From contig NC_092590.1 of assembly GCF_047663525.1 (NCBI RefSeq), forward strand, positions 10,746,001-10,810,000: a stretch of DNA of 64,000 nt. The letters are read 5' to 3'. The translations under genes and the position numbers were made by a program. This DNA comes from Anas platyrhynchos. Lineage: Eukaryota > Chordata > Aves > Anseriformes > Anatidae. The notes beneath the pieces are model-generated. The model was not told where the DNA came from. It saw nothing but the letters and a program-made list of their open reading frames with translations, and did not search any database. Of the stretch, positions 52,187 to 57,909 are shown piece after piece (within the stretch, counting starts at the first letter, position 1; each line of letters begins with the position of its first letter).

Positions 52187-55100
52187 ATGGCCACGTCTGG
52201 AAAAGTAAGGACGCTCGCTGCCCTTCTCCCCACCCCAAGCCCAAGGCGAAGCTCCCCAGCAGCCTCACTCCCTCTCCTTGCAGGTCATCCGGTGCAGAGC
52301 TGCTGTTGCCTGGGCAGTGGGCAAACCGCTCTCTCTCGAGGAGGTGGAGGTGGCACCCCCAAAGGCGCGTGAAGTCCGTGTCAAGGTAAAAGCAAGGGCT
52401 GCCGAGCGCCAATGCCGGCTGCAGCTTCTCTCTTCTAGGGAAAAGACTGCTGACATGATTAAATGCAGACCATTTGGGAACGTGTGGGCTTGTAGGTAAA
52501 GGCGCAGACCTGTGCACAGCGGTGCTCTGGGAAAGTGGAGGGCTCACAGCTGGCAGTGGCTGTCTGATGCCCTGCCTGTCACAAACATCTCCCCAGCTTC
52601 TGGCACTGATGCTGTTCAGGCCAAGAGGAAAGGACAGTCTGCACGGGATTATCAGATTCAGTACCAAAACAGTGCAAAGGGCTGCAATTTGTTCTCTCCT
52701 GCTAAGTTACACCACACTATTTCAGACACAGCCACTCAGGACCACCCATTCCCAGAAACCAGAGAGCCAGACAAATGCCACCAAGTAATCCCCAGCCCCT
52801 GCAGCACAGTGCAGAGGAAAGCCATGCAAAGCCTTCAGCATGAGCAGAAGGGCTTGTGCCTGGGCTGGGCACAGAGGTACCAGCATGAGGCATCAGCACC
52901 AACCATGGTGACACTCGAAGAAATCACATCTAACTGCTGGCTTCAAAAAAGACCAGGCTCCTTCTACAGCTCACCTGCTCTTTCCTCTCCAAACAGATTG
53001 TGGCCACAGGGATTTGTCACACGGATGACCACGTTATTGAAGGCAGTGTTGCTGATATAGATTTCCCAGTCATCCCTGGCCATGAAGGAGCTGGGATTGT
53101 GGAGAGCATTGGGGAAGGAGTGACCTCTGTGAAACCAGGTAACCAGCTCGCACCCGGGACTCAGCTCTCAAAGCCCATGGGGCTGCCCAGAGCTCGGAAA
53201 TAGCCCCCAGCAGCCTGGAGCCATGACCCATGACTGTCTGCACACCAGTACCACTGGACCACCACACACACTTTCCTCATCTGCTCCCCAAAGTGCCCAA
53301 ATCAGGCTCTGAATTTTTCCTGCGGGCAGAGGAAGCAGAGGGTTCATGCCAGGCGCTGTGACGGGCGGCACCCTCCAGGCTGCCGAGTGAGAGGCACCTG
53401 TTATAAATGGCTCAGGATTCAAATTAGGATTAAATAAAAAAATAGGATTTATTAAAAGAATATAAAGGAATAGAGGTAAGCAAACAGCGCTGGGTGCACC
53501 AGGAGTCTCCGCTCCACCAGGATGCACACCAGTTACATCAAGCAGCTGATTTTTATGCACCTAGACTAATACATATTCATTACTACTTCTAAAAAAAATA
53601 GATTATTATAATTAGCTTCCGGGGTCCAGTTCCTCCTACTGGAGCATGCGCATCAGTCTCCTCTGGGGGTCTCTAGGGGTCTTTCATGCTGAAGGCTCGT
53701 AGTCTTCCTCTCACCTTTGTACTCACTAGGCACTATTCCAAGTTTATGGAACGCTCTCTGCACACTCTCTGCAGGTCTTGTCTCCCAACTGTCCTTCAGC
53801 TTCTTTTTTCTTCCTCTTAATCTCTTGGCCCCCCTGGCCAGATACCAAGGATCCACATAGTATCTCATAACAGTCACCAGCAGTCACCAGTTATTATCAG
53901 TTGTTCTGAAACTCCCAAACAGCTTGACGACTCACAAGCAATTAAAATATTCTTTCCCAGCTATTCACAGTCATCTATATAACATCTATAGCAGTGTTAA
54001 ATCAATCTCGAAGAAGACAGAAAAAAACTGTAACTGTTAGAACTAGAAGTCAGGAATAACAAAAGCAAACAGGTTCATAAATTTAAGGAGTATTTTCTGA
54101 AGACGTGATAAATTGACTAGAATGAGGGGGAGACTGGGACACACTGCGTCTGTGGTTCAAGAATTAAATTGCCAGTGCAGGACCCAGAGGCAGACAGGAT
54201 TCAAACAGAATTGTTCTTTATGGACACGAATTGTTAACACATTCCTCACAATCCCTTATCTTCTTTTTAATATCAACAATTCGTGTCTCTTCTGTTGTTA
54301 ACTGGATTTCATCAGTCCGTTCTTGGAGGGTCCAATTCTTAAGCATCATAATTGACATATTCCCTTCCTTTTTTAACGAAGTTATTACCAATGTACTATT
54401 TATCACCCGGTGTATTAATAGTGTAAGACAAGGTATCATACAAGGTATAAACAATAACATCTTTACACCACATAACAATAAAAATAACACTCTTTTAACC
54501 CATGGTCCACCAGGCAGCCATTAAAATAAATCCCATTCCATATCCTTCCAGGTTTGTGTTTGCTCGCTCACCTCCCCCCTCTCCTTCTCTGGGATGGGAG
54601 AGAGAAATGGGAAAGTGAAGCCTGTGAGTTGAGATAAAACCAAGAAAATAATAATAATAATAATAACAATAACAATAATAATGATGATAATATTACTACT
54701 AGTAATAATGTATACGAAACAAGTGATGTACAATGCAATTGCTCACCACCTGCTGTCCGATGCCCAACCTAACCCCGAGCAGTCCGGCCCTCCTCCCAGC
54801 CTGCCTGCTGGCAGGACAGTGAGAAGCTGAATTTGGCTTGGTCCTTGGCTTGGTGTAAGCACTGCTCTGTAACAATTCAAAACAATTAAAACATCAGCAT
54901 ATTATAACATTCTTCTCATCCTAAACCAGAACATAACATTCTATCAGCTACTAGGAAGAAACACCCTTTTTATCAATCTTTAAACAGCAATTACTAAAGC
55001 TAAATTTTCCACAGACTTCTCCTTCTTGTGCTAGTAAATAATCCAAAACTAGGCAATTTTGATACAAAGCAGTTCTCATCATTTATAACTATTTCTATTA

Positions 55101-57909
55101 CAGCCAATAACCTAATTATTCTATTAAGTATATATACTGGGGTCCTATAGTCCCAGGATCTGTCTCCTGCCCACGTATCTGGATTATAATAGGCAAACAC
55201 CTTCAGGGTCGATTCAGGCTTGTGTTACCGTTCGGCCTGTCAGGGTGATCCAGCTCCTGGAAAACGAATCACAATTTTATATAGGTTAAAAAAAAAGGTT
55301 CTTATGTTATTTTCTCAGGACAACCTGACCTTAGTGTGGAAGAAGTCCAGTCGAGGCCCTCTCACTTGGCAGTCAATACCCATAGGGGTTGCCTCCCTCG
55401 GTAGACCATGCACACCGCAGTGGAGAGTCCTGCCCCGGTCTTGCCTTCTCCCTTTCCTCCCTTCAGGCTTGTCCCCTTTATTTGGCATCCTTAATTCATG
55501 CAGAGCCTCGTTGCCAGAATATTAGTTCTTCCTTAGCTTGAGTTTCAGTTTCCCAGGAGCGGACTCAACCCTCCGAGTTTCAGTAGTTACTGGTCCTTTT
55601 ATTCTGGATGCATGGGTCCCTTTCTGCGGTTCTCACAGCTGTTTCAGTAGTCAGTAAAACAAGGTACAGTCCCTCACATCGAGGGTCCAGTGATTCTTCC
55701 CTCCCGTGGCTGCTTGTTGAAACACTTTCTTTTTTATCTTTTGACAAGTTAAATAACAGTTATCTAATTTGCTTTGTCGTATGGCCCTTTCCAGGTTCCT
55801 GTAGCAGGATTCATCTGATAGCTTTTCATGTTGATACAGATTTGACTACAGATACCAGGGTTTTGGCATTCATCACTATCTCCACAGTTTCCCAGCTGGA
55901 CAGTCACATTCATTTATGTTGCATTCCTTCAGGGGCTCATCACCCCAGTCCTTGCAGTCTCTCTGCTGGTTACACACTTTATTGATATCTATGCACACAA
56001 AGTCAGATTCAGTACACATCTTCTTCACACAAGCACTCTCATCACTGCCATCTGAGCAGTCTTCACATTTTGCTCTAGCACCGTTGGCAGCAGTGCACAG
56101 TCAGGCGAAGGCGAGCAGCAGGCAGAGCGCCCCGCACCGTCCCCTGTGTCACTTATACTACTCCTATTACCCATGCTGTTAGTGTCAGTGGCATCCTCCT
56201 GGTACCGTTTCTGTCTTTGTCTCCCCCTTTTCTTTTTGTCACTGGCCATTCACCACAAATGGGTAAGACACATGATTACTAATTAGGAAAGAGAGTGTAA
56301 CATCTGCTATACGGCTGCAGGCAGTGCCAGCTGCAACCTTAGGTTTGTGAAAGAGCCTGCCAGTGGTCATTTGGCAGTGTAATCTGCGTCTCTGCACTCC
56401 TGCCCTGCAATAGAGCTAAGTCGTCATTAGTAATAGTTATAACACCGACCTGGGGATCATTCCTCACACACCTAACGCTGGCTCTGCTCTGTTCCAGGAG
56501 ACAAAGTCATCCTCTTTGGCCTTCCTCAGTGCGGGGAATGCTGCTTCTGCAAGAATCCTGACTCCAACTACTGCCTGAAGTCCCAGTGAGTTTGCTTCCC
56601 CCCCCCGTTGCCCATGCGGGCTCAGCTCACGCAGGCGAGTGCTCTGCGTGATGAGCGACCCGTGTACGTGCTCCCGACAGCCTCTCCGTGTCGCAGTGCC
56701 TGCTGCCCGACAAGACCAGCAGGTTCACGTGCCGGGGGAAGCAGATCCACCATTTCCTCTGGATCAGCACCTTTGCCGAGTACACCGTGGTGCCGGAGTT
56801 CACCCTGGCCAAGATCGACGCCGCCGCGCCTCTGGACAAGGTCTGCTTGCTGGCCTGCGGCTTCTCCACGGGCTACGGGGCTGCCATCAACACCGCCAAG
56901 GTTGGTACCCAGCCGTGTCCAGAGCTAGCACCCCGCAGCCACCTGCGTTCCCGCAGAAGCGCTCTGCCACAGCCTTCTTCTCCTCCTGCGGGAGGCTGAG
57001 CCGGCCCCGTGTCGTGCAGGTCAAACCGGGCTCCACCTGCGCCGTCTTCGGCCTCGGAGGAGTTGGGCTCTCCGTGGTCATGGGCTGCAAGGCGGCCGGG
57101 GCCTCTCGCATCATCGGCGTCGATGTCAACAAGGAGAAGTTTGCCAGGGCCAAGGAGCTGGGGGCCACCGAGTGCATCAGCCCTCGGGACTTCCAGAAGC
57201 CTGTTCAGGAGGTGCTCACCGAGATGACCGGCTACGGCGTGGACTACTCCTTTGAGGTCATCGGGACAGCCGACACCATGGTACGTGGCCTTCTGACACA
57301 GTGCCCTCCTCTAGCTCATTCACAGCGTCCCATCAGGGCAAATTTCACCACGGCACGAGCTCTGTTGCCTGGTGCCAGCACCTGTGGGCTTGTGTGTGTG
57401 CAGAAAGGCATTTACTGTCTTGGGGAGTAAATCATGTAGGAGTCTCAAAATAGGACGGTGCTTTCATTGCACTGAAAGGTTTGCAGATAGCTGTGAGTGG
57501 CAGACAACTGAAAAGAAAGAATGCATTTCCCATAAGTGTGCCTGATTCACTTTCCTGTCCCATCAGGTCGCTGCCCTGGCCTCCTGCAACATGAGCACCG
57601 GTGTCTGCGTGGTGGTTGGAGAGGCACCATCTGGTTCAGTGGTTCCCATGGATCCTTTGCTTTTTCTAAGTGGCCGAACCTATAAAGGGACTCTGCTTGG
57701 AGGTATGGAAGTAAAGGAAAGATTTCAGAAATTTGAGTGTTGTCCTTTCACAGTAATTCCTGAACTGCCTGTAGAACAGTTACCCTCTAAGGATAAATAT
57801 AGACGTGTATATATATACACGTATATATATATGTATATACGTGTATATACATGTATATATGTACATATATACGTGTATATATATAATTATGCACGTATAT
57901 ATACATATA

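Follow-up and report, generated by a model that had tools for sequence, protein, structure and literature searches.

The window analysed herein, a 64-kb stretch of Anas platyrhynchos DNA (contig NC_092590.1, positions 10,746,001 to 10,810,000), harbours a single minus-strand retroviral integration unit at 53399–56468, which sits in an ADH intron and carries a worn piece of the host gene VLDLR. Frames and sequence were inspected over 52500–57500. The host ADH exons to the left and right of the insertion lie on the plus strand at 52994–53140 and 56497–56586, respectively; both were located by tblastn with ADH exon peptides, those for the former being derived from the window, where a paralogue at 43049–43192 is 67 % identical. 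The element belongs to an extensive family, and it is highly probable that a spliced VLDLR mRNA was captured by a retrovirus, fused in frame to the C-terminal part of the surface subunit (SU) and the transmembrane subunit (TM) of a bird retrovirus envelope protein (Env), and multiplied, so that it is now found on three kinds of long terminal repeat (LTR) element, with the window copy being a dead derivative.

The limits of the unit are provided by its ends. Inspection of the sequence reveals CACC on the plus strand at both 53395–53398 and 56469–56472, and because this 4-bp target-site duplication (TSD) encloses the whole of 53399–56468, including the VLDLR piece, the region represents one integration unit. 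The 3′ LTR, which had been predicted in the same orientation as the VLDLR segment and is found to be so, occupies 53399–54250; on the minus strand it begins with TGTGAGGAATG and ends with ..TTATAACA, such that the ends of the element are of the TG..CA type. Its length of 852 bp was set by breakpoints in other copies of the element, namely L018 (54250), L027 (54249) and L016 (54246), and a shorter LTR of 53399–53874 was rejected, as other copies place the LTR start at approximately 54250. Adjoining it on the minus strand, at 54251–54268, is AAAAAGAAGATAAGGGAT, presumably a polypurine tract. At the opposite end the minus strand reads GGTG and then TGTGAGGAATG, the 11-mer that opens the LTR at 54250 and for which the 64 kb hold just these two sites; the match identifies 56458–56468 as the initial 11 bp of the 5′ LTR. 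A 5′ boundary at 56255, as given by the original prediction, and a later one at 56456 were therefore incorrect, since the LTR start and the adjoining TSD place it at 56468. By comparison with the related copy L010, in which the 5′ LTR ends at 212 and the equivalent of window position 56456 lies at 2579, all but these 11 bp of the 5′ LTR and approximately 2.4 kb of internal sequence are absent. As these parts are gone, and no intact gene was found in the window copy, it is dead as a source of protein.

Within the unit, the VLDLR piece lies at 55797–56139 on the minus strand, is intronless, and comprises parts of exons 1, 2, 3, 7, 8 and 9 with several deletions. The VLDLR-like segment that had been proposed at approximately 56140–55795 is thus borne out: the minus-strand frame at 55876–56100 matches human VLDLR (8ufb_V, E = 2.7e-22) and scores above the cut-off for Pfam Ldl_recept_a, the frame at 55767–55913 matches the EGF-B region of VLDLR (E = 1.6e-7), and eight DNA pieces within 55797–56139 align at 91.8–100 % to the above exons of the VLDLR gene in the same genome. 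Upstream of it, 56140–56457 (minus strand; open frames 56242–56415 and 56028–56249) corresponds to the N-terminal part of a chimeric env, consisting of a segment with no Pfam or PDB match followed by a linker, and matches both the chimeric frame of element L028 (see below) and the proteins P0007–P0009. The MGNRSSISDT sequence of the 56028–56249 frame was considered as a gag start, and hence as a gag–VLDLR fusion in the window; this was rejected, as L010 and L028 show it to be the linker leading from the env N-terminal part to VLDLR exon 1.

Downstream of VLDLR, the integrase C-terminal-like stretch of the original prediction is recovered on the minus strand at 55628–55705 as a match of murine leukaemia virus (MLV) type, through Pfam MLVIN_C and PDB 2m9u, both weak. 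Three minus-strand frames are assigned to an env TM remnant: one at 54954–55082 with a C-X7-CC motif, one at 55000–55224, upstream of the cysteine motif, which was assigned by motif and has no PDB match, and a C-terminal open frame at 54218–54520 that has a membrane span and tail, extends into the LTR, and is placed by its order and hydrophobic span, with no Pfam or PDB match. The env remnant that had been predicted is accordingly accepted at 54954–55082 as probable, by virtue of motif, order and the downstream membrane-span frame rather than of statistics. A search for relatives of the VLDLR–integrase frame returned no candidate, scans of viral contigs yielded no confirmed locus, and an Rfam search of the window produced no match.

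With regard to the rest of the genome, the single captured locus originally envisaged is instead one of a large family. The 346-base VLDLR segment gives 41 matches at no fewer than 40 places, at least 39 of them besides the window, with 92–99 % identity over the main matches (best 40 of 525 candidates); this query ends at the VLDLR end, and so says nothing of the join to integrase. That join recurs nonetheless, as 14 of 19 places fetched with their flanks for comparison align unbroken across the whole of 53399–56456, at 90.8–95.4 %, including the VLDLR–integrase join and the VLDLR end at 55797. Amongst the others, the match of L009 and L012 to the window stops at the VLDLR end, apart from pieces of LTR, whilst L025, L026 and L027 align partially or in split form. 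Five places are found at steps of 14.5–16.3 kb on contig C3, and tandem or segmental duplicates of this sort mean that not all places are independent insertions. Partial LTR pairs are identical in L010, L011 and L013 (100 %), and reach 95.0, 96.9 and 98.1 % identity in L014, L016 and L027, respectively. In all seven window-type copies searched, from amongst the 19 fetched, the 5′ LTR is followed by TGGGGGCTCGTCC, which we take to be a primer site of tRNA-Pro type and which is no longer present in the window copy. This and the 4-bp TSD are class I (gamma-like) features of the window-type element. A TSD of this length is ascribed to ERV1, a group of endogenous retroviruses (ERVs), in PMC6523648. 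The CX6CC form by which PMC3758190 defines a gamma-type TM is not found in the TM remnant of the window, which reads C-X7-CC.

The source of the VLDLR piece becomes apparent from other elements. A search of the genome with P0001, the VLDLR exon protein for LDL receptor class A (LA) repeats LA7 and LA8 from the protein collection, gives at least 300 matches (best 150 of 991 candidates scored). Amongst the 150 rows listed, in which one locus can appear twice, 104 lie in frames of >400 aa and 59 in frames of >700 aa; there are 26 with frames of 737–739 aa on 17 contigs, 12 with frames of 783–784 aa, and nine with frames of 1074–1108 aa on six contigs. These rows are spread over 30 contigs, with C34 alone accounting for 42. 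The 738 aa frame of L028 serves as an example: it opens with a signal-like sequence and a segment whose last residues are RQRQKR, after which come the VLDLR signal region, LA1 in truncated form, LA2, LA3 joined to LA6, LA7, LA8, a truncated EGF-A, EGF-B, the C-terminal part of gp85, and TM. Pfam assigns Ldl_recept_a (E = 9.3e-38), EGF_CA (7.4e-7) and positions 186–226 of the 246 in Avian_gp85 (6.3e-10), and the structural matches are to VLDLR (1.2e-138) and to the TM fusion subunit of avian sarcoma and leukosis virus (ASLV; 2.4e-15). All ten VLDLR-Env frames fetched (737–784 aa) have one layout, comprising a signal peptide, an N-terminal segment with RQKR or RHKR, VLDLR repeats with EGF-B, the gp85 C-terminal part and a gp37-like TM. 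These frames contain no R-X-K/R-R motif other than the RQKR or RHKR that lies upstream; in none of the ten were the canonical SU/TM cleavage motif or the CX6CC form found. A 141-base sequence spanning the VLDLR-to-SU junction is present at all 40 scored places at 99–100 % identity (best 40 of 456 candidates). The join between the N-terminal part and VLDLR is also carried by P0007–P0009, proteins from ENA contigs of 540–1353 bases, and so exists outside this assembly, albeit perhaps in the same species. The 784 aa frames of L040 and L041 read past the stop of the 737–739 aa frames, resulting in a longer C-terminal tail.

Comparison with the native gene demonstrates what was captured. A peptide from the VLDLR tail finds one VLDLR place, at C35:29078611, and a weaker place on C8 that we take to be LRP8 (all three candidates scored); since the tail peptide finds a single VLDLR place, the captured copies exclude the tail. 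Native exons 1 to 9 were located in L042 and L043, and alignment of the window segment to the species' own VLDLR, made against these exons, gives a match without introns. L028 likewise has no introns at seven native exon joins, whilst the eighth (4/5) falls inside an L028 deletion and is seen to be intronless in L029. Homology to native VLDLR stops inside exon 9, with no tail seen. As the native gene on C35 has introns where the window piece and the elements have none, the captured sequence is a reverse-transcribed, spliced VLDLR mRNA that starts partway through exon 1 and stops partway through exon 9. Over 273–276 codons, the ten VLDLR-Env copies display 88–91 % protein identity to native VLDLR, with a synonymous divergence (dS) of 0.07–0.12 and a ratio of nonsynonymous to synonymous divergence (dN/dS) of 0.39–0.60. 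The VLDLR part of L028 has deletions of 66, 354 and 60 bases, which take out LA4 and LA5, the greater part of LA1 and of LA6, and roughly half of EGF-A. All three are in frame, although this is weak evidence, as VLDLR repeats are in phase with one another; the overlaps of 6, 1 and 7 bases at their joins would fit template switching by reverse transcriptase. Contig C35 (86 Mb), which has native VLDLR, and C34 (16 Mb), with its 42 of the 150 listed LA7/LA8 rows, are presumably the Z and W chromosomes, given the Z-linkage of VLDLR in birds.

Two elements that carry the VLDLR cassette have paired LTRs and TSDs. L028 has two 384-bp LTRs that are 100 % identical, the TSD GTCTTG on both sides, a purine tract and the primer site TGGCGCCCGAACAGG, and its interior holds the env frame with room for approximately 0.9 kb more. 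L029 has two 368-bp LTRs, also 100 % identical, a 6-bp TSD (GCAGTA), a purine tract and again TGGCGCCCGAACAGG, which we assign to tRNA-Lys; a tRNA-Trp primer site was not found in either element. Due to the identity of their LTR pairs, both insertions are recent; whole pairs were measured as identical in these two only. Neither has room for pol between its LTRs. The LTRs of L028 and L029 align poorly with each other, and thus the VLDLR cassette occurs on three LTR backgrounds: that of L028 (VLDLR-Env), that of L029 (Gag–VLDLR), and the class I-like window type. In L029, a single frame of 1091 aa leads from gag (Gag_p24, E = 1.5e-31) through a coiled-coil segment to the env linker and VLDLR repeats. 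The coiled-coil segment (L029:3390-3887) has as its only Pfam match a Nuf2_DHR10-like one below cut-off (E = 0.009), and as its only PDB match an unrelated designed chain (E = 0.038); it is a candidate for a second piece of captured host sequence.

Avian retrovirus-like Envs also occur without VLDLR. In a search of the genome with the Avian_gp85 family, 143 of 150 rows start at profile position 178 or beyond (best 150 of 359 candidates), whilst none of 14 control genomes was matched. Many frames of 483 or 503 aa match the profile in the SU C-terminal part only. As two fetched gp85-matching frames, L031 (483 aa) and L032 (499 aa, cut at the end of the fetched piece), are Envs without VLDLR, the genome holds further avian retrovirus-like Envs with open frames. 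Both have only the SU C-terminal part and TM in common with L028, at 43–45 %, and alpharetrovirus-type gp85/gp37 homology in the VLDLR-Env elements is similarly found for these two parts only.

Taken as a sequence of events, capture would have taken place in the gene of an avian retrovirus-like Env and not in the window provirus. The original prediction of an ERV that had captured a host VLDLR cDNA therefore holds with respect to the retroviral capture of a spliced mRNA, and probably not with respect to the provirus in which this occurred. Its analogy to acutely transducing viruses, with gag and pol replaced, loosely fits the window copy, whilst in the chimera VLDLR appears to stand in place of the N-terminal part of SU. 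Both the capture and later transfers may have proceeded by template switching of reverse transcriptase between co-packaged RNAs, with the cassette moving between LTR lineages by recombination. The window-type element could have acquired a piece of the VLDLR-Env cassette in this way, making the window copy a broken recombinant derivative on a class I-like backbone. Elements of the L028 and L029 types would be copied by enzymes supplied in trans, because they have no room for pol. The product of an open VLDLR-Env frame is predicted to be a membrane-anchored protein displaying lipoprotein-binding repeats. Since it has neither the canonical SU/TM cleavage motif nor CX6CC, this protein is unlikely to be capable of fusion by itself.

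Several points weigh against this account. The genome searches scored the best candidates only, and so the copy numbers are lower bounds, which also include segmental and tandem duplicates. Not all copies are young, with the LTR copies of L018 being 91 % identical. Long open frames were the criterion by which the ten VLDLR-Env frames, and another 20 VLDLR pieces, were chosen for comparison, and their openness is therefore biased. Within the window, the integrase-like stretch at 55628–55705 reaches only 18.9 bits for MLVIN_C (E = 0.0012) against a cut-off of 29.2, and E = 0.11 for PDB 2m9u, whilst the env TM frame at 54954–55082 is statistically weak, its best PDB match being the TM of syncytin-1 at E = 0.95, and it has no Pfam match. 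Moreover, the N-terminal segment that precedes VLDLR in the chimera has no Pfam or PDB match, so that the original site of capture is only partly defined; as judged from L031 and L032 only, VLDLR would have taken the place of the N-terminal SU part that VLDLR-less Envs possess, instead of being added to it.

Whether the VLDLR part is maintained by selection was considered from the ratio of nonsynonymous to synonymous polymorphism (pN/pS). Over ten copies this is 0.38 for VLDLR (codon-bootstrap interval 0.20–0.78), 1.25 for the N-terminal part and 0.66 for SU-C/TM. Simulations of neutral change that incorporated the observed transition bias gave medians of 0.62–0.74, and 14 of 400 were as low as the VLDLR value; the N-terminal part and SU-C/TM agree with neutrality. 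With 30 copies (26 distinct sequences), the VLDLR value is 0.41, where the neutral median is 0.64 and 25 of 300 simulations fell this low. The value of 0.38 had suggested purifying selection on VLDLR, but given a neutral expectation of approximately 0.64 under transition bias, the simulations point neither to selection nor against it. The 30 copies retain a VLDLR cysteine in 1046 of 1080 cells, with one of 36 columns lost in all copies. Changes affect four of the 36 cysteine columns versus 43 of 202 others (p = 0.11). Nor does the acidic cage lend support to selection, since its columns changed no less than others (6/21 versus 37/181).

The most likely reading, given about an even chance of being correct, is that efficiently mobilised non-autonomous elements now spread the VLDLR part chiefly as their cargo; its main alternative would be a direct benefit through ligand binding. 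One form that such a benefit could take is a route through yolk, whereby particles or cells displaying VLDLR-Env would bind VLDL (very low density lipoprotein) and vitellogenin in female plasma, and the multivalent ligand would then bridge to oocyte VLDLR and permit entry to the germline. Uptake of vitellogenin and VLDL by the bird oocyte is mediated by VLDLR (PMC6213145, PMC7680802), and there are insect precedents, in that rice stripe virus attaches to vitellogenin and is taken in along with the vitellogenin receptor, on which ZAM, too, is said to depend (PMC3946389). The retention of LA2, LA7 and LA8 in the chimera, the cysteines kept as above, and the many germline copies, two with identical LTR pairs, accord with such a route. 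Set against these are the lack of a canonical cleavage motif in ten of ten frames, a VLDLR pN/pS that 25 of 300 neutral simulations match, the deletion from L028 of the LA and EGF-A sequence listed above, and a native cysteine column lost in 30 of 30 copies; the yolk route seems unlikely. Somewhat less probable is its extension to a receptor swap, in which the receptor-binding part of Env would have been replaced by yolk-receptor repeats that ride yolk lipoproteins into the oocyte, thereby explaining the many open germline copies and the pickup by other ERV lineages. A further step down in probability is a decoy or receptor-interference role, where VLDLR-Env on carrier cells would soak up ligands or block viruses that use LDLR-family receptors. 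LA repeats and a membrane anchor in one frame would suit this, and subgroup A avian leukosis virus uses an LDLR-type protein, TVA, in chicken. There is, however, no sign of domestication, with many copies present rather than one conserved gene, and the pN/pS simulations give no clear signal of selection.

Two more mundane explanations would remove the need for retroviral capture. An intronless VLDLR piece might be an independent processed pseudogene lying beside or inside an ordinary ERV, and the original prediction had named a polyA tail and TSD of its own as the mark of such an origin. Neither a TSD nor a tail of its own was seen around the VLDLR piece, which instead lies inside one TSD-bounded unit, the same worn piece is found at no fewer than 39 other places, with 14 of 19 fetched copies unbroken across its end at 55797, and in other elements VLDLR is in frame with env; a pseudogene origin is thus extremely improbable. 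Scarcely less so is an artefact of assembly or contamination, for whilst satellite or duplicated tracts contain some of the copies, the 150 rows listed for LA7/LA8 fall on 30 contigs, the TSDs are exact, and P0007–P0009 carry the same join of N-terminal part to VLDLR.

Capture and in-frame fusion of VLDLR, the preferred explanation, can be placed alongside several known systems. As in ASLV gp85/gp37, the SU C-terminal part of the chimera matches Avian_gp85 and its TM matches that of ASLV. Conversely, N-terminal SU is not recognisable, the canonical cleavage motif and CX6CC are absent, and the primer site of the VLDLR-Env elements is of tRNA-Lys type, whilst alpharetroviruses use a tRNA-Trp primer. 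The single Gag–VLDLR frame of L029 resembles gag–onc fusions; VLDLR is not, to our knowledge, a classical oncogene, and we know of no transformation by it. Rous sarcoma virus (v-src) and simian sarcoma virus (v-sis) carry captured growth-control genes (PMC13297096, PMC4299795), and are alike in that a host gene is captured by a retrovirus, usually with loss of part of the viral genes; the elements described here differ in being germline copies. CrocERV29 and CrocERV31, which carry a captured KIT-ligand and nectin3, respectively (Chong et al. 2014, PMC4299795), are closer still in that they are archosaur ERVs with host mRNA in an open frame and several copies, and nectin3 is likewise a cell-surface protein. 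As portrayed in that account, however, the captured protein is placed between pol and env or substitutes for env, whereas here repeats are fused in frame inside Env, ahead of SU-C and TM, and different LTR lineages carry the cassette. LTR-mediated retrocopies generated by template switching, as reviewed in PMC5408686, similarly place host cDNA in an LTR element with microsimilarity at the joins, and later retrotransposition is thought possible; fusion into an envelope frame does not feature in the portions of that review available to us.

What is new here is therefore not the capture of host mRNA, which is already known, and rather the presence of a host ectodomain inside an envelope protein. 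Amongst the papers listed by searches of literature from which subscription journals are mostly missing, none dealt with a VLDLR-carrying retrovirus. In the captures described previously, insofar as the available accounts go, a growth factor, kinase or adhesion protein gene lies beside or replaces a viral gene. In the present case the host's main oocyte receptor is found inside a viral Env, in many germline copies, with at least one VLDLR-Env element and one Gag–VLDLR element being very young. These copies provide a natural set of chimeras with which to ask about the process of capture, about a host ligand as an attachment device, and about yolk transport as a route to the vertebrate germline, comparable to that reported for insect viruses. 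On a practical level, the annotation and expression counts of VLDLR in Anas platyrhynchos may be confounded by the ERV copies.

Two further observations concern the copies. A nested LTR segment, which we take to be ERV-L-like, lies at 54560–54950 of the window (minus strand), has similar segments (75–81 %) in L002, L009 and L026, and is present across the window-type copies; as these have it in common, it was probably inserted before the subfamily multiplied. Finally, the copies at L019:5710-9744, L020:5711-9744 and L030:7440-9001 directly adjoin tandem repeat arrays, with a period of approximately 190 bp in L019 and L020, which makes it possible that they multiplied together with the satellite or through segmental duplication.

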